DNA from: Halichondria panicea | Lineage: Eukaryota > Porifera > Demospongiae > Suberitida > Halichondriidae | Length of the DNA stretch: 64,000 nucleotides | Reading direction: 5' to 3' | Assembly (NCBI RefSeq): GCF_963675165.1 | Contig: NC_087391.1 | Coordinates: forward strand, 1,073,001-1,137,000 | Shown here: one piece after another, positions 21,483 to 55,100 of the stretch | How positions within the stretch are numbered: position 1 is the first letter of the stretch | Layout: every line of letters begins with the position of its first letter | Position numbers and translations under genes: made by a program | Notes under the pieces: generated by a model | What the model saw: only the letters and a program-made list of their open reading frames with translations | What the model was told of the DNA's origin: nothing | The model's database searches: none

Positions 21483-24418
21483 TCAAGGTATTACGTAGTC
21501 ATACACTAAAGATTGTTCATAAGAGGGGTCTCCATTTTGCTCAGTTTGGTTGCCATGGTCTGCTGCTACGTTACTGTACACTAGATTAGGCTTCAGCTCA
21601 ATACCACCAGTTGTGGTGTGCTGTCTCGTGTCAGGAGTGCCCGGTCTCACCCCATACACTTTATTCTCTACCACCTCAATGTTCGCTGGGTCTGTGTGGG
21701 AGGGGATATTCAGTACATACATGTAGACGTCATTTGCTGTATATCTAGTAGTTAATGAATTGTACCATGCATGTGCGTAAGTAGTTTATACATCAAGGGG
21801 ACTCTGTCTGATTTCTTTTGGTGTAAGTAAATGCTAATTACCGTATATGCTAGATCAGAGGCCGTTCTTATAAAGGCCACTCTCAAATAGTAGCCTCCTT
21901 TGCTAGCAAAATGAAAGATTTAGTAGCCGCTCTCAAATAGTAGCCTCAGTGAACTTTGACTCTAGCATTTCTGCACGTGGCAGCCATATTAATACTAGCA
22001 GCTAGCTACATGTAGCTATAGGTAGCAGCTTGTTAGTGCTTCATAAAGACTTTTTCATGGCAGAGTTCGAGTTTATGCAGGTGAAAGAACTTTTGATGAC
22101 AAAAAAGTTGTTAAATTAGCTGGGGCTACTAAACACCACTCTTGAACAGTGGCCTCTCTCGAATTGTAGCCTCCTCTTCCATCAAAATGAAACATTTAGT
22201 AGCCACGGCCTCTGATCAAGCATATACGGTAATTAATGTCAGGGCATACTTATGTCGAATGATTTTTCTTTTCCTCTTGTTTTGATGTAGACCCCCAGTA
22301 TAGCAATGGTCATCACTAGTGTGAGTATCACAAACAGTAGCACACCGATCACGCCTCCAAAGGTGGCACTTATCTCAGATGGCACTGACAGATCTGCAAG
22401 TGTATAGCATATACATGTAGCGTATATAGCATCAAGAGTTCATAATAAAAGAGAGAGAATATCGTACGTATATATAGCATGCATCAGATATGTATTCGGA
22501 AAGTAACGTGATTTTTTGCCTGAAACGCTTGATCGAAATGACAATTTGGCAATTACAATGTGTTTGCTGCCTCGAGGCAAGTGGTGGCTCCTGGCACTCA
22601 GATCGGTCAGTTACCAAGCAGGAAGTCGCGTTACTTTCCAAATACATCTGATGCAAGGTAATGCTACGTTCGAGACCGTCTCTCTTTTATTGTGAACTCT
22701 TGATACGTATAGTGTTCATTGTGTTATCTTACATAAACCTCCACCTTTTGTTGCTTGTAATTTCTATACTCAAATTGTGGTCAGTGAAGTACCATGCACA
22801 TGCTCATTTGAGGGAGGCCACAATTTCTGCGTATTTATCGTGCATGGTACTCACCTAGTAGGCAGTTTTCTCCCAAGTAACCAGGGATACAGGTGGTGCA
22901 GTCTGTGGAGATGTTCCTCCCAGTGAGACACACACTGCAGTCATAGTTACTGTCCCAACCAGGCACACAAGTGGAGCAGCTGGAACCAAGATCACGATTA
23001 CCTATGCAATCAGAGCAATTTGTGTTAGGGTCAAAGTTAGTGGCCAAGCATGTTTGACAGAGTGTTGCTGGGTCCCCTCCTGGTAGAGCACACACACTGC
23101 AGTCTGCATCAGTGAACCTGTCTGGTTGTAGGCAGAGGGAGCAGTTGGTGACTGGGTCTCTGTTGGGTAGGCAACTAGTACAGTCTGAGGTAATGTCCCA
23201 GCCTGGTAGACACTGGGTGCAGTTGGTAGAGGCATCTCTGTTGGGTAGGCAACTAGTACAGTTCGAGGTGATGTCCCTGCCTGGTAGACACTGGATGCAG
23301 TTGGTAGAGGGGTCTCTGTTGGGTAGACACTGGCAGTTGGTAGAGGGAGCATGAACTGCAATTGGTTGAGGGATCTCTGTTAGGTAGACATTGTGTGCAA
23401 TTTTTTGCCATGTCGTAACCAAGCAGACAGCTCATACAGTTTTCGTTTTTGTTGAAATTTGGCTTAGCACAAGTTTCACAGTTTGTATCCATGTTGAAAT
23501 TTGAGTCCAAGCAGCTGTTGCAGCTTGCCTCAGGGTCTAGTCTGTCATTGATACAAGTTATGGAACCATCAGCTCGACATTCAGCCACTTGTGGATTGTT
23601 CTGAGATGTGGTTAAACAAACAGGTCCACAGAAACCAGGAGAGCACATGACTCTAAAACTCATAGTCATGTGAGATATGTTGTGGAATCCATTGAACGTC
23701 ATCTCCTCTGTGAAGTCTGCTCCAAGTTGGAGGTTGTCCAGGTCAATCAACAGACTGTCTATTATGTTCGGTAGTCCACTATCAATGGCTTCTATGAAGA
23801 ACTGAATCCTTCCCTGTGTAATAAATAAATAAGCAATTCCAACCACTCAGTGCTTAACTTACTGTCCATGCAGTCGTTTTTGGTATTACTGGTAGAGGAT
23901 TGGCTGCTACCCCGACGAAACCTGTTGGACCTTGACCAAATGTTGTGCTCATTTCACTGAATGGGCAAGTACTTCCTGACAGGCCATTACAGTTAGTGAA
24001 GGAATATGGAGGTGTAGGGGCATTGGGTACACTAACAGGTCTTGTCTCCAGTGATGCACCGAATGGTCTGATGGTCCAACGGAACCTGGTGTCACATCTC
24101 CCGTCTCCTGTGTTGTCACAGTTGGTGTTTCTGAATGGTTGATCATCACAGCACACTGGTACTAAGTTGTCAGCACTTGCCACATTACTCAGTGGAACAG
24201 CACATTCAGCACACAATCCGGTTGGGTTGGTGTAGTTGATAAAATTGACCGTCAGTACATATTCAGCTCTCACAGCAGTCTGCAGTAATGTAGAGTATTG
24301 TGGTTGTCCATTGAATTACATGCATTACATGCAATGTATTATAATTATGCAGTCCATTGCAGTAACTTACAGAAAATAGAGCAACTGCAATGATCACAAT
24401 TAGTGTTGTTTTAGCCAT
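21483..24418 (-). pseudogene. Delta-like gene E (tail type B, frameshifted copy related to gene M)
   Basis: Exons 24418-24371, 24279-23863, 23813-22855, 22393-22250 and 21736-21483. The signal peptide [20 protein letters not shown]-like exon and first half of exon 3 are nearly identical to gene M. Within the CxxC repeats a deletion of 92 bp relative to M (at about 23348) shifts the frame, so membrane and tail exons are lost from the reading frame. The last CxxC modules ([12 protein letters not shown]) resemble gene H. The membrane exon ([16 protein letters not shown]) and tail match gene I. The tail has two ITIM-like sites, LVYSNV and LVYDYV. It is a mosaic and currently broken gene. A CCAAT-type motif (ATTGG on the minus strand, about 24508) lies upstream. 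Confidence 0.75.
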
Positions 24419-25044
24419 TCTTTACAGAAGCCTATAGACCTAGCTATCTCTCTGCTCTCTGTTCTAGCCTTGTTTGTTTGTCACTGTGGTTCATGAAACT
24501 TTAAGCAGCCAATAAGGTGTGGCTCAATTAATTTTCGATCACTTAGTGGTCGAGACCATACATATTTTATGCCAACTGCTGTAGACTACACCTGTTTTTG
24601 TCATGTATACGAGAACAACGAGAGAAACTGACAACCGACAGGTGTAGGGGCATTGGGTACTAACAGGTCTTAGTAGTGATATAGCTACATATGTTAATAC
24701 TCATATCCCTAGTGTTTAAATACGTGATTGTAGTACACAGTTGACTTAATTAAGGTGCTTACATTGTCTCTTTTATTGTAACAGTTAATATAACTACAAT
24801 GCGATGTGTACTCATGAAATTACATAATGTGAAAATCAGGTTGATAGCCACTTGGACAATACAATTATAGTGTGCAGTTTCTGAGTTTTAACATAATGAC
24901 TTAAGTAGCATAAGAAGTGTGATATATATACATACAAACACAGTACATAACATGTGCACAGTTGTGATAGTGTGTTTCAGTTACTGGTGTGTCCTCTTAA
25001 AGTATTTAGTAGCACTACGTGCATGTAGCATGTATGCAGTCATT
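24419..25044. other. Spacer between genes E and F with duplication breakpoint
   Basis: Positions 24419-24640 are nearly identical to 57162-57380 upstream of gene M, so E and M share their promoter region. At 24641-24675 there is a 35-bp stray copy of exon-2 sequence (AGGTGTAGGGGCATTGGGTA...) matching 24010-24046. After it the sequence switches to one matching 46780-47000 beside gene K. Confidence 0.7.
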
Positions 25045-27124
25045 TTAAGATATCACATAGTCATAGACAGAAGATTGTTCGTTTTCATTCTCCTCTGGCT
25101 GGTTCCCATGATCTGCTGCCTCGTTACTACACACTAGGTTCAACTCAATACCACCAGTTGTAGTCCTGCCAGGAGTGCCCACTCCATACCCTGTATTCTC
25201 TACCACCTCAATGTCCGCTGTGTCTGTGTGGGAGGGGATATTCAGTACATGTATTTGCTGTACAATTAATTCTTGCAGTATTAATGCTTATGTAGTTTAC
25301 GCATCAATTAAGGGGACCAAACTCCTATGTAATTATACACGTTGTAAGTGAAAGTAGTTTGATCCCCAGGGCATACCTATGTTGAATGAGTTTTCTTTTC
25401 CTCTTGTTTTGATGTAGACCCCCAGTATAGCAATGATCATTACTAGTGTGAGTATCACAAGTAGTAGCACACCGATCACGCCTCCAGAGATGGCACTTAT
25501 CTCAGATGGCACTGATAGATTTGCAGGTGTAGGGTAAGTATATCATTCATTGTGCTATCACAAACCTCCAAACGTGTTGTTGGTGTGTGCTTGTAATTTC
25601 TGGTGTGTTTGTGTACTTTTAAATAAAATTGATCATGCAGTGTATTCTTTTGAGACTAGTCCTTTAAAATGACATTTTACATTACGAAAAGTAGTATTTG
25701 AGGCAGGCCACAATATAAAATATACTTTACTCACCTAGTACGCATTCTTCTCCCGAGTAACCAGGGATACAGGTGGTGCAGTCTGTAGACATGTTCCTCC
25801 CAGTGAGACACACACTGCAGTCATAGTTACTGTCCCAACCAGGCACACAAGTGGAGCAATCTGTACTTTCATCGTAGTTATCTTTACAGGTACAATTTTT
25901 GTTTGGGTCTTTCCCGGGAGAAAGGCATGTTTGACAGAGTGTTGCTGGGTCCCCTCCTGGTAGAGCACACACACTGCAATCTGTATCAGTGAACCTGTCT
26001 GGTTGTAGGCAGAGGGAGCAGTTGGTGACTGGGTCTCTGTTGGGTAGGCAACTAGTGCAGTCCGAGGTGATATCCCAGCCTGATAGACACTGGGTGCAGT
26101 TGGTAGAGTAATTTCTGTTAGGTAGACACTGTGTGCAGTTTTTTAGTTTATCAAATAAGTTAAGACAAGCTGTGCAGTTGGTGGTTGGGTCATAGTTGGT
26201 CTGTACGCAAGTGGAGCAGTCTGTAGTAATATCCAGGTTGTAGAGGCAGTCGTTGCAAGCTACAAGAGGTGAAGGGTCAAATCTGTTTTCAGTACATGTT
26301 AGAGTGCCATTAGTTTGACATGTCGCCACTCGTGGATTGTTCTGAGGTGTGGTAGTACAGTGAGGTCCACAGAAACCAGGAGAGCATTTGACTCTGAAAC
26401 TCATGGTCATGTGAGATATGTTGTGGAATCCAGTGAACGTCATCTCCTCAGTGAAGTCTGCTCCAAGTTGGAGGTTGTCCAGGTCAATCAACAGACTGTC
26501 TATTATGTTCGGGAGTCCACTATCCACGGCTTCTATAAGAAACTGAATCTGCCCCTACATGCATGCATGCATGTATATAAATAATTATAAATGGTAGGTG
26601 AATTGAACGTGAACTTACTGTCCATACAGTAAAATGTGTGCTTGAAACAGGTAGAGGATTGGGTGCTACTCCCAGTAGTGCTGTTGGACCTTGACCGAAT
26701 GTTGTGCTCATTTCATTGAATGGGCAAGTGCTGGTGGACATTGTACAGTCTTTAAAGAAGTAGGGAGGGTTGTCAGCATTGGGTATGCTGGGGGGTCTTG
26801 TCTCCAGTGATGCACCGAATGGTCTGATGATCCAACGGAACCTGGTGTCACATCTCTCCTCTCCTGTGTTGTTACAGTTGCCAAATTTTAATGGTTGTTC
26901 ATCACAGCACACTGGTATTGTGTCTGTAGGATGGCTTGTATTCAGAGGTCTCTGACATTCAGCACACAGTCCGGTTGGGTTGGTGTAGTTGATCAACTTG
27001 ACTGTCAGTATGAACTCACTTGTTACTGCTCCCTGTGTATACATGTACATATACAATTGTTCTTTACCGTAAAATATTCACTTACAAAGAGACTCAGAAG
27101 AATAAGTGCTAGTAACTTTTCCAT
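25045..27124 (-). CDS. Delta-like gene F (tail type B)
   Basis: Exons 27124-27086, 27032-26619, 26554-25735, 25511-25377 and 25271-25045; 1635 nt, 544 residues, frame open. Signal peptide [17 protein letters not shown]-like exon starting [14 protein letters not shown]-like core [14 protein letters not shown]; a single variable CxxC module (CLPNRNYSTNC), then a short C-terminal set ending [13 protein letters not shown]. The usual acceptor of the membrane exon is mutated (CAG to CAA). The next AG, 9 bases on, keeps frame and is used in this model. The start of the tail exon (25271) is also inferred from phase. The first ITIM-like tyrosine of the tail is Cys (NLVCSN); the terminal SVYDYV site remains. 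A TATA-like AT run lies about 35 bp upstream of the start codon. Confidence 0.72.
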
Positions 27125-27394
27125 ATATGTAGCTTGTTAGTTTCTCACACGCTATTATATATAAATGTGTCAGTATAATAGTGATACCATTTATACTATA
27201 AGTGTGAAGGATCAGGCTCGTACTCCATGTATATATAACTCAGTTGCTTACGTTGTCTCTTTCATTGTTGACATAAACTTCAATGCACTGCATGTATGTA
27301 TCAAGATTCCATGCACTGTTGACTGTATTCATTAAAATAGAGCCATAAGTCTTATGATAGCTGTCAAGTTGTGTTTGCTATGTAAGTTCCTGCA

Positions 27395-27640
27395 TGAGTT
27401 TTGGTTGGGTTTGTGTAGTTGATGAAATTCACTGACAGCATGCACACACCTATATATATCAATATGCACCTATATATATCGATATATAGTTACGCTACAC
27501 TTTTGCGTGGGCTTTTACATAGGTGAAAGACAACTCACTGATGTGTAATGTGCACATATATATACAGATGTTCTAGCTCCAAAGCAGTACAACGTAATCT
27601 TCATGCCAGTCCTATATATAGCTATACATGCGTAGTACAC
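27395..27640 (-). pseudogene. Relic of MNNL and signal-peptide exons
   Basis: TTGGTTGGGTTTGTGTAGTTGATG at about 27401-27424 is the start of an MNNL exon, and 27535-27605 matches a tail-A-class signal-peptide exon (CTCCAAAGCAGTACAACGTAATC). The rest of the gene is gone. The same pair of remnants recurs at 51385-51600, ahead of the very similar tail of gene L. Confidence 0.7.
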
Positions 27641-27874
27641 TCAGTGACACCTCTTACTAATCATGTGATATCACCAACCACTCTATATAGTTGGATTCAA
27701 AACTGCTGCTTATGATTCAGTTACAGCTTGTTTGTACAATGTCTAATATAGATGTACGTGCAGTAATGTTGTGTATTTGTAATTAAAGTGCATAGTTGGT
27801 ATTTCAGTTACTGCACACGGTGTGTCCTCAAAGAGCAATATAAAACAACTTATATAGTTACTATGCAGTCGTTT

Positions 27875-30492
27875 TTAAGATATGTAGGAATAGACAGAAG
27901 ATTGTTCATCAATTTTGTCTTCGTTTTGCTCAGTCTGTTTGCCGGAGTCTGCTGCTACATCACTATACCCTAGGTCCAGCTCAATACCACCAGTTGTAGT
28001 CCTGCCAGGAGTGCCCACTCCATACCCTGTATTCTCTACCACCTCAATGGCTGTTTCTGTGTGGGTGGATATTTAGTACGTTGAGTTTTCCATTTCATTA
28101 TTGCCTGAATTTCTCTTATGCCATGTAAATTGTATATATAATATACATGTTGTAAGTGAAAGTATAGTTTGCTTATTAATTGGTGCCCCATGGTATACCT
28201 ATGTCCAATGAGTTCTCTTTTCCTCTTGTTTTGATATATACCCCCAGTATAGCAATGATCATTACTAGTGTGAGTATCACGAGCAGTAGCACACCAATCA
28301 CACCTCCAGAGGTGGCACTTATCTCAGATGGCACTGACAGATCTGCAAGTGTATAAATAGCATAGCACATTATTATTTATTTTGTGATTGTGTGTACTCT
28401 GGAAAGTATGCATAATTATACCTATGAGAGGTGAATAGTGCCAAAAGAAAACGAATTTGCTGTGTTAGGAGGCGGCGGTGTTTACTTGGTGGCGGCAAAA
28501 ATGAATATAGATGAGGTTAGAACCACTTGACCTTAGCTAATAGAGAAATAGACCTTAGCTAATAGAGAAACAGAGGGTGCTCCTGTGCTAGCCTCGAGAC
28601 CATTCGCAGCCTGATATCAGGTCAGCGCTAGAGCAACTGTCTGTACTGGTGATAACTTTAATTAGTTAAAGGTCAAGTGGTCCAACATTATCTTATTCAA
28701 TATATTCGAGGTTAAGCCGCCTCCACCAAGTAAACAACCGCCGTAATCTCGAGGTTAAGCCGCCGCCACCGTAGATTGAGTCAACAAACGCCTCCGCCAC
28801 ATTCGAAGTTAAGCCACCGCCAGCAAGTAAACACCCGCCTCCTAAAAACATCCTCCTTTTGGCACTACTCACCCCTCATATATACCGTATGTCCAAATTG
28901 TGATCAGTGTTTTCTAACTTTCATTGAGACTATAATTTTGTATGACTCTAAAATGGTAATCTTTATGATGGCTTATAACAATATGAAAGCCTCTTATTTG
29001 AGGTAGGCCACAATTTGAGCATACATCATGGTACTCACCTAGTAGGCACTCTTCTCCCGAGTAACCAGGGATACAGGTGGTGCAGTCTGTGGACATGTTC
29101 CTCCCAGTGAGACACACACTGCAGTCATAGTTACTGTCCCAACCAGGCACACAAGTGGAGCAATCTGTACTTTCATCATAGTTGTCTTTACAGGTACAAT
29201 TGTTGTTCGGGTCTCTCCCAGAAGAAAGGCATGTTTGACAGAGTGTTGCTGGGTCCCCTCCTGATAGAACACACACACTGCAGTCTGTATCAGTGAACCT
29301 GTCTGGTTGTAGGCAGAGGGAGCAGTTGGTGACTGGATCTCTGTTGGGTAGGCAACTAGTACAGTCTGAGGTGATGTCCCAGCTTGGTAGGCACTGAGTG
29401 CAGTTGGTAGAGGGATCTCTGTTGGGTAGGCACTGGGTGCAGTTGGTAGAGGGATCTCTGTTGGGTAGGCACTGGGTGCAGTTTGTTAGTTTATCATAAA
29501 ATTCCAACAAACATGATGTACAGCCATTGAGAGGATTGAAAGTAGAGTCCAAGCATGAAGCACAGTTTGTGTTTGGGTCATACATGTAGCTTGTGTCACA
29601 GGCTGTGCAATTAGTGGTTGTGTCCAGGTTGTAGAGGCAGTCGTTGCAGGCTACAAGAGGTGAAGGGTCTAATCGATTATCAGTACATGTTAGAGTGCCA
29701 TTAGCTCGACATTCGGCCACTCGTGGATTGTTCTGAGGTGTGGTGGTACAGTGAGGTCCACAGAAACCAGGAGAGCACTCGACTCTAAAACTCATGGTCA
29801 TGTGAGATATGTTGTGGAATCCAGTGAACGTCATCTCCTCTGTGAAGTCTGCTCCAAGTTGGAGGTTGTCCAGGTCAATCAACAGACTGTCTATTATGTT
29901 CGGGAGTCCACTATCCAATGCTTCTATGAAGAACTGAATTTGCCCCTATATAAAATATTTAAAAATGGTAGGTGAATTGAACGTGAACTTACTGTCCACA
30001 CAATAGAATCTGTTTTTGAAACACGTAAAGGATTGTCTGTTACTCCCAGTAGTGCTGTTGGACCTTGACCGAATGTTGTGCTCATTTCACTGAATGGGCA
30101 AGTGCTGGGGGACATTGTACAGTCTGTGAAGAAGTAGGGAGGGTTGGCAGCATTGGGTATACTGGGGGGTCTTGCCTCCAGTGATGCACCGAATGGTCTG
30201 ATGGTCCAACGGAACCTGGTGTCACATCTCTCCTCTCCTGTGTTGTCACAGTTGCCAGATTTGAAAGGTAGTTCATCACAGCACACTGGTATTGTGTTTG
30301 TAGGATAGCTTGTATTCAGCGGTCTCTGACATTCAGCACACAGTCCGCTTGGGTTGGTGTAGTTTACCAAGTTGACTGTCAGTATGAACTCACTTGTTAC
30401 TGCTCCCTGTGTATACATAATTATATACATACAGCCGTAAAATATTCACTTACAAAGAGACTCAGAAGAATAAGTGCTAGTAACTTTTCCAT
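27875..30492 (-). CDS. Delta-like gene G (tail type B)
   Basis: Exons 30492-30454, 30406-29993, 29945-29039, 28342-28199 and 28056-27875; 1686 nt, 561 residues. The signal peptide is of the MEKLL class; MNNL-like domain; DSL-like core [14 protein letters not shown]; CxxC series with two exact [13 protein letters not shown] modules and the end [13 protein letters not shown]. Membrane helix [20 protein letters not shown]. The tail model uses an acceptor deeper in the exon than in E or I because an upstream stop and a 2-bp loss rule out the usual one, so that end is uncertain. The tail holds DLGYSDV and SSVYSYI, both fitting the ITIM consensus. The intron before the membrane exon carries a 445-bp inverted-repeat element (28429-28873). 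Confidence 0.72.
28429..28873. mobile_element. Inverted-repeat element in gene G intron 3
   Basis: GAGGTGAATAGTGCCAAAAG at the left and CTTTTGGCACTACTCACCCC at the right are inverted ends. Inside are several GGCGGCGG / CCGCCGCC and AGTAAACA / TGTTTACT pairs. No open frame. Confidence 0.7.
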
Positions 30493-30824
30493 AGCTAGCT
30501 TGTTAGATTCTCGCACGCTATTGTTAAGTGTGTCAGTAGTGGTGATAGCATTTATATACTAGTTTATGCTCGTACCCCATTTGTATGTATAACTTGTTGA
30601 CTTAAATTGCCCTCTTTCATTGTTGACATAAACTGCAATGCACTGAATGTTTTTGTGCCAAAGTCTATGGTAGCTGTCTGCATGTGTTTGCTAGTGTGTA
30701 TTATTATGTAGTTTCCTTGAGTTCTGATCATATGCTGCATGATTATTATAAAAATGTAATACAAACACAAATCACAACAAACTTAGTTACACATTCAGAT
30801 TGTAGTTTCTGTACATATATAGGT

Positions 30825-31020
30825 CTTCTCTATTCTCCTGCTCTCTGGCTCTCTTTTTCCTTACAGCTCAGTGCTATCCCCGTTCAATTCTTTCCTGAGC
30901 TCTACCACTCCTCTGCTGTCTCCATAGGTGGTATGGGTCTCGCTCCATTTTTGTCCAGCTCATAGTCTTCTGCATGCATGCATGTGTACAGTGATGTAAT
31001 ACATAGCCTGAAAGCTTCAC
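30825..31020 (-). pseudogene. Stray tail-type-C exon, frameshifted
   Basis: Matches the last exon of gene M (54825-55004): [10 protein letters not shown] is readable, then a deletion shifts the frame and gives an early stop. The upstream exons that should precede it are missing. Flanking DNA (30650-30830) also matches that around 54660-54830, so a whole gene-M-like gene has been truncated here. Confidence 0.8.
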
Positions 31021-31042
31021 TTACTGTGTTTTATCAGGTCAG

Positions 31043-31870: not shown

Positions 31871-32274
31871 TGGAGAGGGGTGAACGGGTGCATGTAGGGT
31901 CTATGTACGTCAGACCATGCTAGTACATGAATGTGTGTTTACTATTGACTGATCATGAGCATTTATAGTTCTTACTAGATTCTAGTTGTAAACTATTGAT
32001 ACATTCATTATACCCTGATAGTTTAAGCGGCCATCTTCTATGTCTCTCACACCTTCCTTGCAGTGTCACTGTGGATTTCAAGAGGTGTTCCAAGGATCTC
32101 TAACCTATCTTTAGAGCTTTATTGCTGACTCAATGAACAATCATGATCACGATTAGTTTCCTTACATTCTTGATTTTGTTCACAATTGACTCACATTCAC
32201 AACATCACAACATATTAAAACCTTAAAATGTCAAAAATAATAATATATGGACAGTCAGTATAGTCAGTCACTAG

Positions 32275-40100: not shown

Positions 40101-43100
40101 TAGAAGCTATTAGTTTTCGTCGCATTGTAACCGTTGAGCAGTTATAGCTGGAATACACACACACACAGACAGACAGACAGACACACACACACACAGTCAG
40201 CTTTACCGTATCCCTCGTGCGGCTACGCCTCGAGGCATAATAAGATAGTGTCTAAAGTAGGGTTTCAAATTTTGTTGCATGTTTTTCTGCACAAGTGATA
40301 GGAATGCGATCACATGCACGTACAGACAAAAACGATCACGGTAGTGCTAGAAATTAATGCGTGATACTAACTAATGCTATTTATGCCTTTGAGGCCTACA
40401 ATCCTCATTGAAATCGCGGCATCAGGAAATAAGATAATTGCATCGCATAACATTTTTGCCTTATTTTATGCTTGCATAATTATACCGTATAATGCGAATT
40501 TTCAAGGCACTTATATTTCGTGGAATGGTCTCTAAAAGCATGTCGGTGCACAATGTTCGTGGAATGACTGCTTACCGGAAGCCATGCCTTTAATCCTTTG
40601 TACGTTATAGCAGATAATGTTAAAGAACAATTTTCGTGGATTTAATTCCCATGAAATCAGCGAAAATTTCGCACTATACGGTAATATATTTCCATGCAGC
40701 ACTTACGATATATCATGACATAAAAAGTGGTGTAGTGTAATACGGGTAAATAAATGACACAAGATCAGTAATGACTGACTAGCTATATTCATTTTATATG
40801 TCCAGGCAATTTCTATTTCGCTATTAGCTTGTCTGTCCAATGTAATTATAATCTGTCAGATGGTGGTGGCTAATTAACCTCCACTGACCAGTATTGACAT
40901 GTGGTTGTGATTGGCCCATTAGTGTGTGTTTACTATAGTCGCATCATGCATAATAGTCAGCTATTTTCAGCATTGGTAGTATTATAGTGTTATTATAGTT
41001 GCCTGTATACTGAATGGCCGATCATCACAGCACTGATACTAATTGCATGGTCAGCACTTGTCACTTGGTTCAATGTAGTCTCACATTCAGCACACAGTCC
41101 AGTTGGGTTGGTATATAAAGTTGACCGTTAGTAAAATCAGCTCTCACCTGTATTATATAGCAGGGTTTCATACAGAGGGGGGGGCCCTGGGATTTCCCAC
41201 CCCCAGCCAAAATTCCCCCCCCCCCCTAGAAATCTGAAAAATTATGATGTCATAATAACAAAATGTATGGCTTTTCTCCTTAAAATGTCTACAATCTCAA
41301 TAATCGAACTAGACTCGTAAATTTTATGGTTTAAAGCACACAAAAAACCCAAATTGCACCTCAGATAACCATTCCTCAAAAATTTTCCCGGGGAGGACCC
41401 CCAGACCCCCCTCAATTAAACGTTTTCCCATCTGTATGAAACCCTGTGTAGTCATTATTTTAACTGTACAGTTATTGGTAAATGTTATTATCGCATGGTA
41501 AACAGATGAGGTGCTTATAGTGCGTGTGTTCTTTCTAGTGCATGCATAGTATTGTCATTTTCAAGGTATTACGTAGTCATACACTAAAGATTGTTCATAA
41601 GGGTCTCCATTTTGCTCAGTTTGGTTGCCATGGTCTGCTGCTATGTTACTGTACACTAGATTAGGCTTCAGCTCAATACCACCAGTTGTGGTGCGCTGTC
41701 TCGTGTCAGGAGTGCCCGGTCTCACCCCATACACTGTATTCTCTACCACCTCAATGGCTGGATCTGTGTGGGAGGGGATATTCAGTACATGTATTGTATA
41801 CACTAGCTTACACATCAATTGCTGACTTTACTGTACAGTAGTCACTGAATTGTGCCATGTACGTAAGTAGTTTATACATCTACAATGTATATAGGGAAGT
41901 GATTTCTTGTGGTGTTAATTAACAGTAGTTTGCTAATTAATTAACGTCAGGCCGGCATACCTATGTCAAATGAGTTTTCTTTTCCTCTTGTTTTGATGTA
42001 GACCCCCAGTATAGCAATGGTCATCACTAGTGTGAGTATCACAAACAGTAGCACACCGATCACGCCTCCAGAGGTGGCATTTATCTCAGATGGCACTGAC
42101 AGATCTGCAATTAAGTGTATATAGCATAAAATTATACAGTAATACATGTATTCATCGTGTTAGCTTAAACCTCCAAAAGTGTTGTTTTGTTTGCTTGTAA
42201 TTGTTTGTTGTGTTAGACTAAGCCTCTATATATATATAGGTTAGATCGCATTAATACAAAAGCTTTCTTTTGTTTGAGGCAGGCCACAATTTAACAGTAT
42301 ACTCGCCTAGTCTGCATTCTTCTCCCGAGTAACCAGGGATACAGGTGGTGCAGTCTGTGGACATGTTCCTCCCAGTGAGACATACACTGCAGTCATAGTT
42401 ACTGTCCCAACCAGGCACACAAGTGGAGCAATCTGTACTTTCATCGTAGTTATATTTACATGTACAATTGTTGTTCGGGTCTTTCCAGTGAGAAAGGCAT
42501 GTTTGACAGAGTGCTGCTGGGTCCCCTCCCAGTAGAGCACACACACTGCAGTCTGTATCAGTGAACCTGTCTGGTTGTAGGCAGAGGGAGCAGTTGGTGA
42601 CTGGGTCTCTGTTGGGTAGGCAACTAATACAGTCTGAGGTAATGTCCCAGCCTGGTAAACACTGGGTGCAGTTGGTAGAGGGATCTCTGTTAGGTAGACA
42701 CTGGGTGCAGTTGGTAGAGGGATCTCTGTTGGGTAGACACTGGGTGCAGTTGGTAGAGGAATCTCTGTTGGGTAGGCACTGGGTGCAACTGGTAGAGGAA
42801 TCTCTGTTGGATAGGCAACTAGTACAGTCCGATGTGATGTCCCAACCTGGTAGACACTGGATGCAGTTGGTAGAGGGATCTCTGTTCTGTAGACACTGGG
42901 TGCAGTTAGTAGAGGGATCTCTGTTGGGTAGGCACTGGGTGCAGTCGGTAGAGGGATCTCTGTTGGGTAGACACTGGGTGCAGTCGGTAGAGGGATCTCT
43001 GTTGGGTAGACACTGGGTGCAGTTGGTAGAGGGATCTCTGTTGGGTAGGCACTGAGTGCAGTTGGTAGAGGGATCTCTGTTGGGTAGGCACTGAGTGCAG

Positions 43101-46100
43101 TTTGTCTGTAGGTCGTAGAAGTCCAACAAACAGAATGTACAGTCTTCAAGACAGTTGAAGTTTGTGTCCATACATGATGTACAGTTGGTAGTTGGGTCAT
43201 AGTTGGCATCCAAACAGGTAGAACAGCCTGTAGTAATATCCAGGTTGTAGAGGCAGTCGTTGCAGGCTACAAGAGGTGAAGGGTCTAATCGGTTGTCAGT
43301 ACACGTTAGAGTGCCATCAGCTTGACATGTTGCCACTCGTGGATTGTTCTGAGGTGTTGTGGTACAGTCAGGTCCACAGAAACCAGGAGAGCACTCGACT
43401 CTAAAACTCGTGGTCATGTGAGATATGCTGTGGTATCCAGTGAACGTCATCTCCTCTGTGAAGTCTGCTCCAAGTTGGAGGTTGTCCAGGTCAATCAACA
43501 GACTGTCTATTATGTTCGGGAGTCCACTATCAATGGCTTCTATAAAGAACTGTAACCGTCCCTATATATAGAAGCAGGTAAAAAAATGTCAAAAACACAC
43601 ACCACGAAGAAAAATGAGAACTTACCGTCCACACAGTAAAATTTGTTTTTGAAACAGGTAGAGGATTGGGTGTTATTCCCAGTAGTGCTGTTGGACTTTG
43701 ACTGAATGTTATGCTCATTTCACTGAATGGGCAAGTGCTGGGGGACATTAAACAGTCTGTGAAGAAGTAGGGAGGGTTGTCAGCATTGGGTACACTAACA
43801 GGTCTTGTCTCCAGTGATGCACCGAATGGTCTGATGGTCCAACGGAACCTGGTGTCACATCTCTCCTCTCCTGTGTTGTTACAGTTAGTGTTTGTGAGTG
43901 GTCGATCATCACAGCACACTGGTACTAGCTGGTCAGCACTTGCCACACTACTCAGTGGAGCAGCACATTCAGCACATAGTCCGGTTGGGTTGGTGTAGTT
44001 TACCAAGTTGACTGTCAGTATGAACTCACTTGTTACTGCTCCCTGTGCATGTATATATACACACACATATACAATAATCATATTACGTAATGAAGGGTAA
44101 AAACATCACTCACGAAGAGACTCAGAAGAACAAATGCTAGTAACTTTTCCATATCTGTATACTAGTTGGACAATTGCAGGTCATGGGAGCTATTATGGTT
44201 TTGATTGTAGGTGTGTCAGTACTGCATCTGGCTATGAATAGACATACATATTCATGCCTCTGTATCCCATGTGTATACATTCATTAGTTGACATATAGGT
44301 TGAAGTTGTTTTATATGTGAATCTTGTAGCATTAGCTATCTATGCACTAAGACCCAGGGCCTAAACTAACTCTTGGAACTTAACAGTTTGTTAATAAATA
44401 CCCATGCAGGGCATGCTATGTCGAATAAACATGTATGTAGCTGTTTTGATGTGTATACCCCAGCATATATAATAGTAATGATCATTACCATATAGTAATC
44501 ACAGTGGCAATAATATTATACATGTACAAGTGCTTTTGTCTGTTACATAACTAAGCTGTTTCTTTCAGTACACTTTGCATGACTACATAATCAGTTCTGG
44601 TCGCTGCTCATTTCGTGTTGGGCCCAGATCCTCACCCTTGTATATATACATGAATAGACATACATTCATGCCTCTGTATCCCATGTGTATACATATTAGT
44701 TGACATAGTTGTTTTATATGTGAATCTTGTAACATTAGCTATCTATGCACTAAGGCCTAAGACCTGAACTAACTCTTGTATGGTCAGTTTGCAATTTAAC
44801 TAATAATGCCCCAGGGAATGCATATATTCTGTGTTGAATAAACCTCCTATATATATGCATGTAGCTGTTTTGATGTGTATACCCCAGCATAATTATATAT
44901 AGCAATGATCATTACCATAGTAATCACAATGGATTATATAGTACAGTATAATTATACAAGTGCTTTTGTCTGTTACATAACTAAGCTGTTTCTTTCGGTA
45001 CACTTTGCATGACTACATAGTCGGGTTCTGGTTGCTGCTCATTTCGTGTTGGGTCCAGATCCTCACCCTCATATATATGGTAATCATTTTCAACAATGGT
45101 AGTAGGAGGGGTTGCAATGCACACAGGCTCATAATGTTGGGTGTGGTTAGCTTCAGTGTTCACTTCGTTGAGTGTGTTTGTGCGTAACTGCATGACTTCA
45201 TAGCTCATGGTTAGTGTTTCAGTGACTTCAGTGACTTCGACTGTGTTCTTACTGTACCCAAGATTTCGACTCATTTCTATGACTTCTGGAACTGTTTTAT
45301 CTGCATGGATTTTTTAAAGCTAGTTAGACTAATATATACATGTGATTATATACGCGTAGCCTAAGCAGTGTTATAGTCACAGCTTACTTTTCCTGACTGT
45401 GAAAGCCATTAATAGGATGATGAGCAGGAAAGCTCCACCCACTCCTCCAGCGACACTACCCACCAGTGCTAAATCGAGTGAAGATTCTGTAATAGAAATA
45501 AGTACATTTCATGGTTGACTATAGTATTGTATAGCACTCACCAGGTTCACAGTTACTGCCAGTGAATCCAGGCAGACAGGTGGTACATCTTGTGGATATG
45601 TTTCGTCCAAACAGACAAGACGTGCAGTTGGTAGTTAGATCGTAGTTATCCACACACCTAGTACAGCTTGTGGTAGGCTCAAAGTTGTCATAGCAAGTTA
45701 GAGTGCCATTAGCTTGACATTCGGCCACTCGTGGATTGTTCTGAGATGTGGTGGTACAGTCAGGTCCACAGAAACCAGGAAGACAGGCTGTGCAATTGGA
45801 GACTGGGTCATAGTTGTAGAGGCAGTCGCGGCAGGCTACAGGAGGTGAAGGGTCTAATCGGTTGTCAGTACATGTTAGAGTGCCATCAGTTTGACATGTC
45901 GCCACTCGTGGATTGTTCTGAGGTGTGGTAGTACAGTGAGGTCCACAGAAACCAGGAGAGCATTTGACTCTGAAACTCATGATCATGTGAGATACGTTGT
46001 AGAATCCAGTGAATGTCATCTCCTCTGTTAAGTCTGCTCCAAGTTGGAGGTTGTCCAGGTTAATCAACAGACTGTCTATTATGTTCGGGAGTCCACTGTC

Positions 46101-49100
46101 CACAGCTTCTATATGGAACTGAATCCGCCCCTATATAGGAGCAGATAAAAATGTTATAAACCACTCTATGAAATAAAACATGGACTTACTGTCCATGGAT
46201 TTTTGCTTGAAACAGGTAGAGGATTGGGTGTTACTCCCAGTAGTGCTGCTGGACCTTGACCGAATGTTGTGCTCATTTCACTGAGTGGGCAAGTGCTGGG
46301 GGACATTGCACAGTCTGTGAAGAAGTACCCCATACTGGGTCTTGTCTCCAATGATGCACCGAATGGTCTGATGGTCCAACGGAACCTGGTGTCACATCTC
46401 CCCTCTCCTGTGTTGTCACAGTTGATATTTGTGAATGGTAGATCATCACAGCACACTGGTGGTGGTAGCTTGTCAGCACTTGCTACATCACTCAGTGGAA
46501 CAGCACATTCAGCACACAGTCCGGTTGGGTTGGTGTAGTTGACCAAGTTGACTGTCAGTATGAACTCACTTGTTACTGCTCCCTGCATGTATATACAAAC
46601 ATATACAATTATAGTCATTCTTTAAATTTAGTTCACTCACGAAGAGACTCAGAAGAACAAGTGCTAGTAACTTTTCCATAGCTATAGCCTGTTATACAAC
46701 ACTCACATGCATGCCATGCGAGCTATTGTTTTAATTTTAGATACATGTGGCAGTAGTGATCGATATAGCTACATATGGACCTGTTAGTACTCGTATCCCT
46801 ATAGTGTTTAAATACGTGATGGTAGTACTCAGTTGACTTAAGGAGCTTACATTGTCTCTTTCATTGTTAAGATAACCACAATGCGATGTGTACTCATGAA
46901 ATTACATAATGCGAAAATCAAGTTTCAATGATAGCCACTTGGACAATACAATTATAGTGTACATTTCCTGAGATTTTAACACTATTACATAAGAGTGTAC
47001 GTGATATATATACAAACACAGTTATGTAACATGTGCATGGTTGTGATAGTGTATTTTAGTTACTGTTCTCTGAAAGTATAATAAGTATTAGAGTCATTTT
47101 AATTAGATATCACATAGTCATAAACAGAAGATTGTTCGTCTTCATAATTTTTCTCATTTTGGTTGCCATGATCTGCTGCCTTGTCACTATACACTAACTC
47201 AATGCCACCGGCTGTAGTCCTGCCAGGAGTGCCCACTCCATACCCTGTATTCTCTACCACCTCAATGTCCGCTGTGTCTGTGTGGGAGGGGATTTTCAGT
47301 ACATGTATTTGATAGTTTGCTGTAAGATTAATTCTTACAGTATTAATGCCATGTAGTTTACGCATAAAAGTGACCAAACTCTTGTGTAATCATACATTTT
47401 AAGTGAAAGTATAGTTTGATGCCCCAGGGCGTACCTATGTTGAATGTGTTTTCTTTTCCTCTTGTTTTGATGTAGACCCCCAGTATGGCAATGGTCATCA
47501 CTAGTGCGAGTATCACAAACAGTAGCACACCGATCACGCCTCCAAAGGTGGCAGATGACACTGACAGATCTGCAATTGTATATGGCATAGTTATATAGTA
47601 TTCATTGTGCTATCACAAACCTACAATATAGTGTTGGGTGTGTTTGCTTGTAATTTCTTGTTGTTAGTGTACTTTTAATGTATATATAATTCTTAATTGT
47701 GGCCAGTTTCTTTTGTAGACTAAGCCTCTAAAATAAGACACTATACATTACGGTGCTCACCTAGTATGCACTCTTCTCCCGAGTAACCAGGGATACAGGT
47801 GGTGCATTTGGTGGAGATGTTCCTCCCAGTGAGACACACACTGCAGTCATAGTTACTATCCCAACCAGGCACACAAGTGGAGCAATCTGTACTTTTATCG
47901 TAGTTATCTTTACATTCGTTCGGGTCTTTCCCGGGAGAAAGGCATGTTTGACAGAGTGTTGCTGGGTCCCCTCCTGGTAGAGCACACACACTGCAGTCTG
48001 TATCAGTGAACCTGTTTGGTTGTAGACAGAGGGAGCAGTTAGTGATTGGGTCTCTGTTGGGTAGGCAACTAGTACAGTCCAAGGTGATGTCCCAGCCTGG
48101 TAGACACTGAGTGCAGTTGGTAGAGGGATCTCTGTTGGGTAGGCACTGGATGCAGTTGGTAGAGGGGTCTCTGTTGAGTAGACACTGGGTGTAGTTTGTT
48201 AGTGTATCAAATAAGTTAAAACAGGCTGTGCAGTTGATGGTTGGGTCATAGTTGGTCTGTACGCAAGTGGAGCAGCCAGTAGTAATATCCCGGCTGTAGA
48301 GGCAGTCGTTGCAGGCTACAAGAGGTGAAGGGTCTAATCGGTTATCAGTACATGTTAGAGTGCCATCAGCTTGACATGTCGCCACTCGTGGATTGTTCTG
48401 AGGTGTTGTGGTACAGTCAGGTCCACAGAAACCGGGAGAGCACTCGACTCTGAAACTCATGGTCATGTGAGATATGTTGTGGAATCCAGTGAACGTCATC
48501 TCCTCTGTGAAGTCTGCTCCAAGTTGGAGGTTGTCCAGGTCAATCAACAGACTGTCTATTATGTTCGGTAGTCCACTATCAACGGCTGCTATGAAGAACT
48601 GAATCCGCCCCTATAGAAGGCAGGTAAAATCAAACCACTCCATGAAAAAAACATTAACTTACTGTCCATGCATTAAAAGTTGTGCTTGAAACAGGTAGAG
48701 GATTGAGTGTTACCCCCAGTAGTGCTGTTGGACCTTGACCGAATGTTGTGCTCATTTCATTGAATAGGCAAGTGCTGGGGGACATTGTACAGTCTGTGAA
48801 GCTGTACCCCATACTGGGTCTTGTCTCTTGTGATGCACCAAATAGTCTGATGGTCCAACGGAACCTGGTGTCACATCTCTCCTCTCCTGTGTTGTCACAG
48901 TTGCCAGATTTGAATGGTAGTTCATCACAGCACACTGGTATTGTGTCTGTAGGATGGCTTGTATTCAGCGGTCTCTGACATTCAGCACACAGTCCGGTTG
49001 GGTTGGTGTAGTTAACCAAGTTGACTGTCAGTATGAACTCACTTGTTACTGTTCCCTGTGTACACATACACATAAATGCATTTTACAGTAAAATATTCAC

Positions 49101-52100
49101 TTACGAAGAGACTCAGAAGAATAAGTGCTAGTAACTTTTCCATAGCTATAGCTATAGTCAGACTATACTGATATGATTTTGGGTGTGTGTTTTTTTATAG
49201 TGGTGTTTCAGTTGCATGCATTTCTATAATTATAGTAAATTTAAGACATGCATAATTATTCATGTGCTTGTATATCCCATGCATGCATGTGTATAACTCA
49301 GTTGACTTTCATTGTCTCTTTCATTGTTGACATAAACTGCAATGCACTGTATTGAGCCATAAGTTTTTTGATAGCTTTCTGTGTTTGATAGTGTGTATAT
49401 AATAAGTTCCTGCATGAGTTCTGATCACATACTGCATGATCATTATAAGTTGCGTAATAACGTAATATACAAGCTTTTGTTGCCCAGTGAGTGGGCAGAT
49501 CAAAGCAATCCAGTGCTCTGTATATATGGCATGTTGCATCACTACCATAGCAACCATATATTGCATGCACTGCATTATATGGCATAATGCACTGGGATTA
49601 TAATTATGCACTTGCACTGTGTGTAAATGCAGAGAAAGAAATCTACTTATGGGACTTTTTTTTAGTGATCATGCACAGCTCCGACTGGAAGAGACTTGGC
49701 ACATCCAAATGTTCGCTGGTTAGTAGTCCCATAGCCACCTATTGGGGTGTGTGCAGTTATTTAGAATCTATCTCGTTTTGTTCGTGCATTATAAGTACTT
49801 TTAGCTGACAATTATTGACGTTTGACGAAATTCGGTAGCTTACTGTACTCGCCTAGTCTGCACTCTTCTCCCGAGTAACCATGGATACAGGTGGTGCAGT
49901 CTGTGGACATGTTCCTCCCAGTGAGACACACACTGCAGTCATAATGAAAGCACCGCGGGTGCATGCTGATGCCTCGGTGGAGGTGCCAAAGCTACATAAC
50001 ATAAAGCTACTAATAGCGTTTATACACACATTATATCATTATTATCATGAATATTAATGTTGATGAACATTTTTGCATTGATTAATTTTGCTGCATGCAG
50101 GCAGAATCCAGACTCAAAGAGTGGGTAATGATCGACCATGATTGTTGTTAAAAACGATTGATACCAAAACCTAATGCCAAATTAATGGCTGCATAAGTAG
50201 AGCTTTGCAGCTCTCTTCTCACTCTTGCAGCTACCAATAGCTAGCTAGCTTTCTAGTGCAGAGCTATACCTACTATATAAGTAGAGTATATAGCAACACT
50301 CCATAGACAAGTTTTGCTACGCACTCTTCTGAAAAGGCTGCAATGGGATTCTAAGTAGGTATAACTCGAGAACGAAGCATTATTTGCAAATCCACAAATT
50401 AAACAAGTGAACATGACTAGAAGCCTATAGAAACTCTTACTTGCACTCGATTGATCATTGAGCAGCTGTAGCAGTCTACACAGACACACAGACACACAAA
50501 CACACTACCGTATACCTCGCTTGCGCATGTGCACCGAGGCATAATTACTGTCCCAACCAATCTGTACTTTTATCGTAGTTTTCTTTGCTGGTACACATAC
50601 ACACATGCATATACAACAGTCATTCTTTACAGGTAAGTATTCACTTACGAAGAGACTCAGAAGAAAAGATGTTAGTCCATATAACTAGCCAGATTCTTAC
50701 AGATGTCACGGGGGCTATATATACTGCTTTGATTTGGGTGTGTCAGTATCTAGTATAGTGCATGTTCAGTATAGAGATTATGAATATAGATAATTATTCA
50801 TGTGCTTATATCCCAGCTCGACTCATGTGGGCACACCAACAGCTGATTTGTTCACTGCTTGTACTCTATGTCCAGTAGTGAGTTCATGCATGTATATAAC
50901 TCAGTTGACTTTGAAGTGCTTATTATTATATATAATTATTTTCTCTTTCATGTTGATTTAAACTGCAATGCAGAGTCTCTAATATGATATCATTTTAACT
51001 CTGTGTTTGCTATAGTGTGCAGTTCTTCAGTTCTATATAGTCAGTCGCATAAGAATATACTGTAAAAAACACAGTTCACCACAAGCTTAGATATTCACAC
51101 TCAGATTGTAGTTTCTGCATGTATACCGTATAGCGGGAAATTTTCGCGGGTGCACATTTTCGCTGTTTGACTGGAGAGCCCCATTCGCATTTCAATGCCA
51201 GGAAACCACACGCACTAATAGCTTTGCATGTGAAATACTTGTGCGTGGGAGTTTTAATTTTCACATCAACTGCGCTGCCCTTGAAAAATGCGAAATTGTG
51301 TACCTCATGAACATTTTTTAAGTATATTATTTCTTCACATTTGGCTGGCTTGCATGATCGTGGTCACATTTCTCAATACAGTATTGACGTTCAGCACACA
51401 GTCTGGTTGGGTTGGTGTAGTTGATGAAATTCACTGACAGCATGCACACACCTATAAATATGTATCAAATATATAGTTACGCTACACTTTTGTATGGGCT
51501 TTTACATAGGTGAAAGACAACTCACTGATGTGAAACGTGCGTGCACAGATTTCCTATCTCCAAAGCAAAACAACGTAATCTTCATGCCAGGCCTATATAC
51601 CTATACAGCTATACATGCATAGTACGCTCTCACCTCTTATTAATCATATCATGTGACATCACCAACCACTCTATGATAGTTCGAATTCAAAACTGCTGCT
51701 TATGATTCAGTTATACAACTTATTGTACAATGTCTATACTATATAGATGCATGTACATGCACACATGCAGTGATGTTGTGTATTCGTAATTAAGGTGCGT
51801 GGTTGCATGGTTTCAATTACTGCACATGATGTGTCCTCAAAGAGCATTATAAAAACAACGTATTACAGTTACTATATGCAGTCGTTTTTAAGATATGTAG
51901 GAATAAACAGAAGATTCTTCATCAATTTTGTATTCGTTTTGCTCAGGCTGTTTGCCAGGGTATGCTGCTACATTACTATACCCTAGGTCCAGCTCAATGC
52001 CAGCGGTTGTAGTCGTGTCAGGAGTGCCCACTCCATACCCTGTATTCTCTACCACCTCAAAGTCCGCTGTGTCTGTGTGGGAGGGGATATTTAGTACATG

Positions 52101-55100
52101 TATAATTACTGTTTGCTGTACATTTCATTATTGCAGTAGGTACTGAATTGCTAAGTAAGTTAATGCATCAAAGGGACCAAACTCTTGTATACATGTTGAA
52201 GTGAAAGTATAGTTTGCTAATAATATTATTGATGCCCCAGGGTATACGTACCTGTGTTTTCTTTTCCTCTTGTTTTGATGTAGACCCCCAGTATGGCAAT
52301 GGTCATCACTAGTGTGAGTATCACAAACAGTAGCACACCGATCACGCCTCCAAAGGTGGCAGATGACACTGATAGATCTGCAAGTGTATATAGCATAGCA
52401 TATTATTACCTGAGGCGTGTGGGTGGCCACGGGTATAGTAGTCCGTTGGTTTATTTGTTTGTCTGTGTGTGACATGTGAGTCTATACTCACCTGGATGCC
52501 ATAGCACTGCGTTTACAGCATGGATGCCTCCACACAACAAGTTATTAGTTTAATAGTGGCAGATTTTGATTAAAGCTTCGTCGTCGTATAAAAGCGAGCA
52601 AAAGCTAAGAAGCTAACTTGCCTCTACACGCGACCTTTATTCGAGGTAGATCTACAATTTGCAGCTGAAGTGTTTCTTTCCGGTCTCTCTTTGTTGCTTC
52701 TTTAACTGAACACTCCTCTGGTTTTTATAGATATATTTTATCTCCCTCACAGCCGAGGGTTAGCACTTCAGTGCTCTAGTTATTTTGTGTTTTTATAGAA
52801 GTGTGTACTCTGGAAAGTATAGATGTACTATATGCTCAAATTGTGGCCAGTGTATTCTTGAGACTATAATTTTTATGTGACTCTAAAATTCATGATGGCT
52901 TATAACAATACGAAAGCCTCTTTATTTGATGTAGGCCACACTTTGAGCATATATCATGGTATACTCACCTAGTAGGCAGTCTTCTCCCGAGTAACCAGGG
53001 ATACAGGTGGTGCAGTTGGTGGAGATGTTCCTTCCAGTGAGACACACACTGCAGTCATAGTTACTGTCCCAACCAGGCACACAAGTGGAGCAATCTGTAC
53101 TTTCATCGTAGTTATCTTTACAGGTACAATTGTTGTTCGGGTCTTTCCCGGGAGAAAGGCATGTTTGACAGAGTGTTGCTGGGTCCCCTCCTGGTAGAGC
53201 ACACACACTGCAGTCTGTATCAGTAAACCTGTCTGGTTGTAGGCAGAGGGAGCAGTTGGTGACTGGGTCTCTGTTGGGTAGGCAACTAGTACAGTCCGAG
53301 GTGATGTCCCAGCCTGGTAAACACTGGGTGCAGTTGGTAGAGGGATCTCTGTTCGGTAGACACTGAGTGCAGTTGGTAGAGGAATCTCTGTTGGGTAGAC
53401 ACTGAGTGCAGTTTGTTGTGGGGTCAAAATTGTCATAGCAAGTTAGACTACCATCAGCTCGACATTCGACCACTCTGGGATCAGTTATATTTGTTGTGGT
53501 ACAGTTAGGTCCACAGAAACCAGGAGAGCACTCGACTCTGAAACTCATGGTCATGTGAGATATGTTGTGGAATCCAGTGAACGTCATCTCCTCTGTGAAG
53601 TCTGCTCCAAGTTGGAGGTTGTCCAGGTCAATCAACAGACTGTCTATTATATTCGGGAGTCCAGTATCCACAGCTTCTATGAAGAACTGAATCCGTCCCT
53701 ACAGAAAAATTTCAAAAACCACCACATGGAGAAAAGCATAATCTTACCGTCCACGTAATAAAATCTGTTCCAAAAACAGGTAGAGGATTTTCTGTTACTC
53801 CCAGTAGTGCTGTTGGACCTTGACCGAATGTTGTGTTCATTTCACTGAATGGGCAAGTGCTGTGGAAACTGTTACAGTTGGTAAAAAAGTAGGGAGGGTT
53901 GACAGCATTGGGTATACTGGGGGGTCTTGTCTCTAGTGATGCACCGAATGGTCTGATGATCCAACGGAACCTGGTGTCACATCTCTCCTCTCCTGTGTTG
54001 TCACAGGTGGTGTTTCTGAGTGGTAGATCATCGCAGCACACTGGTACTAACTGGTCAGCATTTGCTACATCACTCAGTGGAACAGCACATTCAGCACACA
54101 GTCCGGTTGGGTTGGTGTAGTTGACCAAGTTGACTGTCAGTATGAACTCACTTGTTACTGTTCCCTGTGTAACATATATACACATACACATGCACATACA
54201 ATAGTCATTCTTTACAGTAAATATTCACTTACGAAGAGACTCAGAAGAATAAGTGCTAGTAAATTTTCCATATAGTTAGCTATTCTCATGCACACGCTAT
54301 ATTGTATAAGTGTGTCCGTAGTGGTGATAGCTGCATTTATAGATACTGTAATGTGAATAGAAATGTTCATGCTTGCACCCCATGCATGCATGTGTAGTTA
54401 TCTTAAATTGCTTTCATTGTTGTTTCTTTCATTTTTAACTGAAACTGCACAGTAAAAAAACAGATTCGTTATAATAACATAAAACATCTCAAATAAAATG
54501 CATCATTTGAAATTTAATGTAGAAATGACATAAATTTCTGTCATTTCTACATTAAATTTCAAATGATGCATTTTATTTGAGATGTTTTATGTTATTATAA
54601 CGAATCTGTTTTTACTGTGTGAAACTGCAATACACTGTCTTAAACTAGTGCCATACATTTTATGGTACATTTTATGATAGCTGTCTGCATGTGTTTGCTA
54701 TAGTGTGTGTAGTTTCTGCGTTATATGATTATTAAGTCGTATATAAGAACGCATACAATATACAAACACAGTACACAACAAGCTTATAGTTACACATTCA
54801 GATTGTAGTTTCTGTACGTATAGCCTATTCTTCTGCTCTCTGGCTCTCTTTTTCCTCCTTCTGCTCAGTGCTCTCCCCGTTTAATTCTTCGCTGAGCTCC
54901 ACCACTCCTCTGCTGTCTCCAATGGTGACATGAGTCTTTGCTGCTGCTCCATTCTTGTCCAGCTCATAGTCTTCTGTGTGTGTAACACTGATGTAATACA
55001 TAGTCTGAAAGCTTCACCTGCTGTTAGCAGGAAAGTTCCACCCACTATAATAATACTAGCTGCATAAACATGCATGGGTTTGTGTAAACAGAGTCATGTG

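Follow-up and report, generated by a model that had tools for sequence, protein, structure and literature searches.

The window analysed here, a 64,000-nucleotide stretch of the genome of the sponge Halichondria panicea (C15:1073001-1137000 of a 131-Mb genome), contains 13 minus-strand genes of a family that, judged from profile alignments, is remotely homologous to the Delta-type (DSL) ligands of Notch. The letters A to M assigned to these genes in a first, sequence-only reading match the gene order. Six of them (E, F, G, I, K and L) end in a cytoplasmic tail of a kind designated type B, in which tyrosine motifs of the immunoreceptor tyrosine-based inhibitory motif (ITIM) form had been noticed. 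We propose, with moderate confidence, that this large family consists of DSL-related type I membrane proteins encoded in tandem, among which at least four kinds of cytoplasmic cassette can be exchanged, the type-B tail being one of them, and that type-B tails most likely are phosphotyrosine docking tails signalling into the cell that bears them.

The six type-B tails are located as follows (window positions):
21486..21692, minus strand: coding part of the tail of gene E, which is frameshifted upstream; LVYSNV at 21567-21584, LVYDYV at 21492-21509.
25048..25224, minus strand: tail of gene F; LVCSNE (lost site 1) at 25120-25137, SVYDYV at 25054-25071.
27878..28057, minus strand: tail of gene G; LGYSDV at 27956-27973, SVYSYI at 27881-27898.
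41564..41764, minus strand: tail of gene I; LVYSNI at 41642-41659, LVYDYV at 41570-41587.
47102..47278, minus strand: tail of gene K; LVYSDK (lost +3 hydrophobic residue) at 47180-47197, SVYDYV at 47111-47128.
51891..52073, minus strand: tail of gene L; LGYSNV at 51969-51986, SVYSYI at 51894-51911.

Every motif quoted for these genes in the sequence-only reading was found. Site 2, near the C-terminus, fits the consensus [SILV]-x-Y-x-x-[ILV] in all six tails, and four of them (E, G, I and L) have both sites; this number becomes three out of five (G, I and L) among genes with an intact model, because the DSL-related exon of gene E is frameshifted. The two tyrosines are separated by 25 residues in E, G and L and by 24 in I, in agreement with the spacing of about 25 previously given for E and I. 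In gene F, the reported replacement of Tyr by Cys at site 1 is real and accompanied by the loss of the +3 residue, which is Glu; gene K retains the tyrosine at this site and has Lys at +3. The residue at position -2 is L or S at all 12 sites, including the two broken ones. The spacing of 24-25 residues led us to reject an identity as immunoreceptor tyrosine-based activation motifs (ITAM), in which the tyrosines are 9-12 residues apart. The tails end in VIP, VIS, YIS or ISN, and they hold zero to two lysines each, so that a classical lysine/ubiquitin route was set aside as their sole explanation.

Shuffling each type-B tail 20,000 times produced at least one ITIM in 13-21% of the shuffles and a pair 18-32 residues apart in 0.14-0.58%, thus a single ITIM is unremarkable and the pair modestly unlikely. 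Since the six tails are paralogous, they amount to one or two events only; taking into account this paralogy and the four tail kinds open to inspection, we roughly estimate the effective surprise at about 2%.

That the tails may be exchangeable is suggested by the family as a whole. Using the DSL-related segment as query with at least 70% identity, and without counting second pieces within one gene, we found 43 close paralogous loci in the genome (41 on C15 and 2 on C6), including the 13 of the window. Tail kinds were assigned in 40 of the 43 loci (19 A, 6 B, 1 C and 14 D). The genes are laid out as MNNL-related, DSL-related plus CxxC-repeat, transmembrane and tail exons, with a signal-peptide exon where it was looked for and found, and the junction between transmembrane and tail exons is in phase 1 for tail kinds A, B, C and D (established from one to six genes per kind). 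On a tree of the ectodomains (MNNL and DSL pieces, 39 rows), for which the bootstrap had not settled, the tail labels need 10-11 changes where the minimum possible is 4, and the strongly supported branches alone require at least three changes for B and at least two each for A and D. The labels are still more clustered than shuffled ones (mean of 18.0 changes, a value as low being reached in 1 out of 200). Tail kind therefore tracks ectodomain phylogeny only partly, a pattern that gene conversion among ectodomains could also yield. Genes E and M share about 1.9 kb of DNA, starting ahead of the signal peptide and running through the end of the DSL-related exon, with no continuation of the match into the transmembrane or tail exons:
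22856-24640 and 55510-57377: ectodomain exons and introns common to E and M, 91-94% DNA identity; transmembrane and tail exons differ.
55293..55430, minus strand: transmembrane exon of gene M, unlike that of E; the tail, read by eye at 54825-54973, has one Tyr and no ITIM, nor YxxPhi or NPxY.
Paired receptors are expected to combine similar ectodomains with dissimilar signalling tails in tandemly arranged genes; such a combination is represented by tails A to D and by the E/M pair, of which E is frameshifted.

The motifs were counted in 38 of the 39 tails assigned to kinds A, B and D (19 A, 6 B and 13 D), leaving out the D gene g6, whose frame is broken. The ITIM consensus is present in 6/6 B tails vs 2/19 A and 1/13 D tails, NPxY in 18/19 A, 0/6 B and 11/13 D tails, and YxxPhi in all 38. 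The Y[DSN]Y[VI] box recurs in the three kinds (17/19 A, 6/6 B and 11/13 D), hence this tyrosine box, and not the ITIM, is what the unlike tails have in common. In the type-B tail, the core is probably formed by the C-terminal Y-x-Y-[VI] box, the upstream site being optional since it is lost in two of the five type-B genes with intact models. Tyrosine makes up 6.4-9.1% of one tail each of kinds A, B and D, and 1.5-2.2% of five type-B ectodomains. The C-terminus of most type-A tails is [IV]Q[VI], a putative class II PDZ ligand.

Tails of type D are long, and the 14 related genes that bear them form a cluster at C15:2186001-2305000. The 13 readable D tails are 325-462 residues long and contain 20-32 tyrosines, NPIY, YEEI, YSKL and YDTA motifs and proline-rich stretches; judged from these features, they look like phosphotyrosine platforms. 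Two more typical Delta-like genes also have tyrosine motifs in tails that were taken from open frames with guessed exact starts: YSKI, YENI and YTTI among others in the C14 gene, NPAY, NPDY and LYTSV in the C12 gene. Tyrosine-rich tails may be the older state.

A candidate reader for such tails was identified on C3, where a gene has two SH2 matches followed by a protein tyrosine phosphatase match. The spliced protein aligns with PTPN11 (6wu8; E 1.1e-191), the arginine motifs of both SH2 domains are matched by SFLCRPS and SYLVRAS, and HCSAGIGRTG is kept; on this evidence the gene is an SHP2 orthologue. Exons encoding the adaptor mu-homology domain (PF00928) gave 16 matches in the genome, thus docking on ITIMs and uptake by an adaptor each have a reader. 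Tyrosine-phosphatase domain exons are very numerous and clustered on C4 (at least 176 matches genome-wide, for the best 150 of 361 candidates scored). We infer that the tails would be phosphorylated, serve for docking and have an inhibitory sign: the two sites of a pair, the upstream LVYSN[VI] or LGYS[DN]V and the C-terminal VY[DS]Y[VI], would be substrates of a kinase of the Src type, and SH2 proteins would then dock on them, with SHP2 as the first candidate and Grb2-type adaptors as the second.

The proposal that signals enter the cell bearing the Delta-like protein, made in the sequence-only reading, is partly supported, being in line with the enrichment of the ITIM form in B tails, the SHP2 orthologue and the platform-like D tails. 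Several observations weigh against it. YxxPhi is found in all 38 A, B and D tails counted, and each intact type-B site fits it too; SHP2 itself is weak evidence, as it occurs across animals. The tyrosines had also been expected to evolve more slowly than the rest of the tail. This was examined with codon counts of Nei-Gojobori type and permuted columns, dropping columns filled in less than half of the rows; the D gene g6 was left out here as well, and the first tail codon of gene E was entered with G though its transmembrane exon ends in A (one column). In type B (6 tails), the nonsynonymous difference (pN) was 0.041 for the four Tyr columns vs 0.148 for the rest (P=0.14), so that the expected difference was not significant, and in type A (19 tails) the seven Tyr columns were no slower (0.142 vs 0.122, P=0.72), which gives no sign of constraint; genes A, C, D, E and H, although broken, and S4, whose tail is cut off, were included here as in the motif counts, which may dilute constraint. 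In type D (13 tails), the 23 Tyr columns were slower than the 334 others (0.045 vs 0.106, P=0.0016), but Phe, Lys and Pro columns were slow too (0.023, 0.064 and 0.072). Fisher tests on synonymous vs replacement states in type B gave P=0.23 for site 2 against the rest and P=0.51 for site 1. In F and K site 1 no longer fits the motif, and across the six genes its +3 position is V, I, E or K. Site 2 keeps its Tyr in all six; none of its three replacement columns (L/S, D/S and V/I) departs from the consensus, and synonymous changes lie beside them.

In the main rival explanation, possible although we consider it less probable than docking, the tyrosines are unphosphorylated YxxPhi uptake signals for AP-2, as NPxY would be in type A, and the match at -2 is incidental. 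It is through their uptake that Notch ligands exert a pull on Notch. The presence of YxxPhi in 38/38 tails and of NPxY in most A and D tails argues for this explanation, as do the PF00928 exons and the prediction by Richards and Degnan (2012, PMC3482393) that four of the five Deltas of Amphimedon queenslandica bind the adaptor complex. It leaves unexplained the L or S at -2 of all 12 type-B sites, and the conserved tyrosines of D tails are mostly not in YxxPhi (e.g. YDTA, YDEA, YDVA). Val at +3 is a weak residue for AP-2. As one tyrosine can serve both functions, the probabilities of docking and uptake overlap.

Docking itself could have another outcome. The YSN of site 1 fits the Grb2-type pYxN, in which case the tail would be activating or scaffolding rather than inhibitory. 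YSN is found in E, I and L, D tails also bear VY[TM]NT, and the sponge's own SHP2 ends in YSNTSGN. We nevertheless judge this outcome unlikely: G and K read YSD, F has no Tyr at site 1, the spacing and the -2 residues fit the ITIM, and binding to pYxN is putative.

It is similarly improbable, in our view, that the ITIM form is a functionless by-product of decay from type-A-like tails, the NPVY motif losing its proline in an array subject to birth-and-death flux. Five of the 13 genes in the window are broken by a stop or a frame break (A, C, D, E and H; no break was seen in the exons read for B, J and M), and a P to L change at -2 does create an ITIM (LEYDYI) in two A tails. The type-B tail of gene I aligns with A tails (BLAST E 3.7e-4), their tyrosines being roughly in register, and against six A tails 0-6 of 1000 shuffles were as good for five and 225 for the sixth. 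On the other hand, 17 of the 18 pairs of G, K and L with A tails were matched by at least 74 of 1000 shuffles, the A and B tail profiles gave an hhalign E of 0.037 (probability 1.4%), and aligners differ on which A tyrosine pairs with site 1. Descent of B tails from A tails is therefore suggestive only, and site 2 is kept in 6/6 genes. Further type-B tail exons do lack it: seven were detected at C15:1277900-1318006, beside type-A genes, with site 2 absent in all, frames broken in two and an inserted repeat-like stretch at the end of two. An acceptor-like AG is in the same register in 7/7 (pattern match), and no type-B transmembrane exon was found in this region; these exons are relics or alternative last exons, and are probably dead. 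LVYSNI is kept in five of the seven, so retention of site 1 is by itself no sign of selection, a further point to be set against docking.

Five-exon, stop-free models were obtained for F (528 aa), G (561), K (531), I (685) and L (498), all with a signal peptide and a transmembrane exon. The latter ends in ATAG/GTATG or a variant, and the tail follows the acceptor CACACAG in phase 1, its first residue being D or E (N in gene E according to its own transmembrane exon). In the model of gene F the usual transmembrane acceptor AG reads AA and an in-frame alternative 9 bases further in was used. Gene I has a GC donor (CTAG/GCGAGT) after its DSL-related exon, at window 42305-42306. The exons of these genes and the type-A tails are listed below, all on the minus strand:
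28199..28342 (G), 25377-25511 (F), 41961-42104 (I), 47435-47569 (K), 52252-52377 (L): type-B transmembrane exons, ending in phase 1.
29039..29945 (G), 25735-26554 (F), 42307-43561 (I), 47761-48610 (K), 52969-53698 (L): DSL-related and CxxC-repeat exons.
29993..30406 (G), 26619-27032 (F), 43626-44042 (I), 48663-49055 (K), 53748-54164 (L): MNNL-related exons.
23253..23813: frameshifted DSL-related exon of gene E; its open frame stops early, and at 22835-23431 the repeats continue in a different frame.
5020..5286: type-A tail of gene B, with NPVY, YETV and the C-terminal YDYIQV.
246-449, 10698-10922, 17253-17519, 36823-37122: other type-A tails; 44984-45313: variant of gene J.
The copy number of the CxxC repeats ([13 protein letters not shown]) differs widely among genes (window 42578-43123, 5978-6442 and 18212-18718); a gene near C15:2198186 has an open exon of 862 residues.

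The label of Delta-like stands in part. Remote homology to DSL ligands is indicated by an hhalign comparison between the C14 gene and six ectodomains of the family (193 columns, probability 96, E 4.5e-9); the C14 gene also served as positive control in Pfam searches (MNNL 4.7e-12, DSL 9.7e-11). In genes G and L neither MNNL nor DSL rose above the Pfam cut-off (G ectodomain alone: DSL 8 bits vs 24.2, no MNNL), and the genome's 29 MNNL matches all lie outside the window. The six-cysteine pattern of DSL is altered in both genes, the Cys of NTFC in the C14 gene being missing (TTTP, TTTN) and an extra one occurring at FCG, and no EGF family was above cut-off after the DSL part, the best being EGF_PEAR1L in L (15.5 bits vs 37.5). 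A profile search of the ectodomain against solved structures gave a single match (E 9.2), taken as chance. The family is related to DSL ligands, but that its members bind Notch should not be taken for granted; LNR (PF00066) is matched twice in the genome, and a Notch-like receptor may exist. One stretch of the MNNL part (alignment columns 24-37, 38 genes) has a ratio of nonsynonymous to synonymous differences (pN/pS) of 1.14 vs 0.32-0.72 in four other stretches, as computed on the stop-free pieces (38/39 MNNL and 37/39 DSL), a comparison short of a formal test of positive selection; such a fast stretch would suit a recognition surface. The same columns are variable in length, with alternative versions scattered across genes.

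More speculatively, we may be dealing with a non-immunoglobulin paired-receptor system in a sponge: about 43 Delta-derived loci, in which exchange of phase-1 exons combines one recognition ectodomain, its MNNL loop evolving fast, with tails that are inhibitory (ITIM pair), of NPxY/YxxPhi type or long phosphotyrosine scaffolds, would serve self/non-self or cell-cell recognition rather than Notch activation. Should SH2 proteins indeed bind the tails, the Delta-related proteins of an early-branching animal would act not only as ligands but also as receptors, and multigene receptors with switchable tyrosine tails, present on other ectodomains in Botryllus and Hydractinia, would have evolved again on a Notch-ligand scaffold. 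Sponge recognition receptors are, to our knowledge, poorly known, and this family is a candidate. Searching the literature at the level of titles and abstracts, we found no paired ITIMs in DSL genes, without claiming their absence from print; the novelty, as we see it, lies in the size of the family and in tail cassettes that can be exchanged on an ectodomain related to DSL ligands.

Comparable arrangements are known elsewhere. Vertebrate KIR and SIRP genes form tandem arrays in which like ectodomains have different tails, as in the E/M pair, although their folds are others and gene E is broken. In colonial invertebrates, according to a review (PMC12065747), the Botryllus fester co-receptors bear ITIM, hemITAM or core YxxI/L/V motifs that differ between loci, with motif swapping through alternative splicing at oligomorphic loci, and Hydractinia allorecognition candidates have ITIM/ITAM in their tails. 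The common trait is the clustering of receptors with ITIM or hemITAM/ITAM tails; these systems differ in their Ig/sushi ectodomains (fester co-receptors), shown polymorphism and role in fusion/rejection. Among Notch ligands proper, the sequence-only reading held that ITIMs are not known, a statement that needs correction: Pintar et al. (2007, PMC1965462, legend of Figure 9) list ITIM, immunoreceptor tyrosine-based switch motif (ITSM), SH2 (including the SH-PTP2 type) and tyrosine sorting signals among in-silico predictions for the tails of human Notch ligands. That legend describes neither paired spacing nor a gene array. A further comparison is with the five Delta genes of Amphimedon, which combine an MNNL/DSL-type ectodomain with divergent tails holding predicted SH2, PTB, adaptor and PDZ sites, and for which reciprocal events in the ligand-bearing cell have been proposed (Richards and Degnan 2012, PMC3482393). 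In Halichondria panicea, unlike in these, the DSL domain is beyond Pfam recognition (two genes tested), CxxC repeats replace recognisable EGF, and the family comprises 43 close loci with exchangeable tail exons and paired sites of ITIM form.

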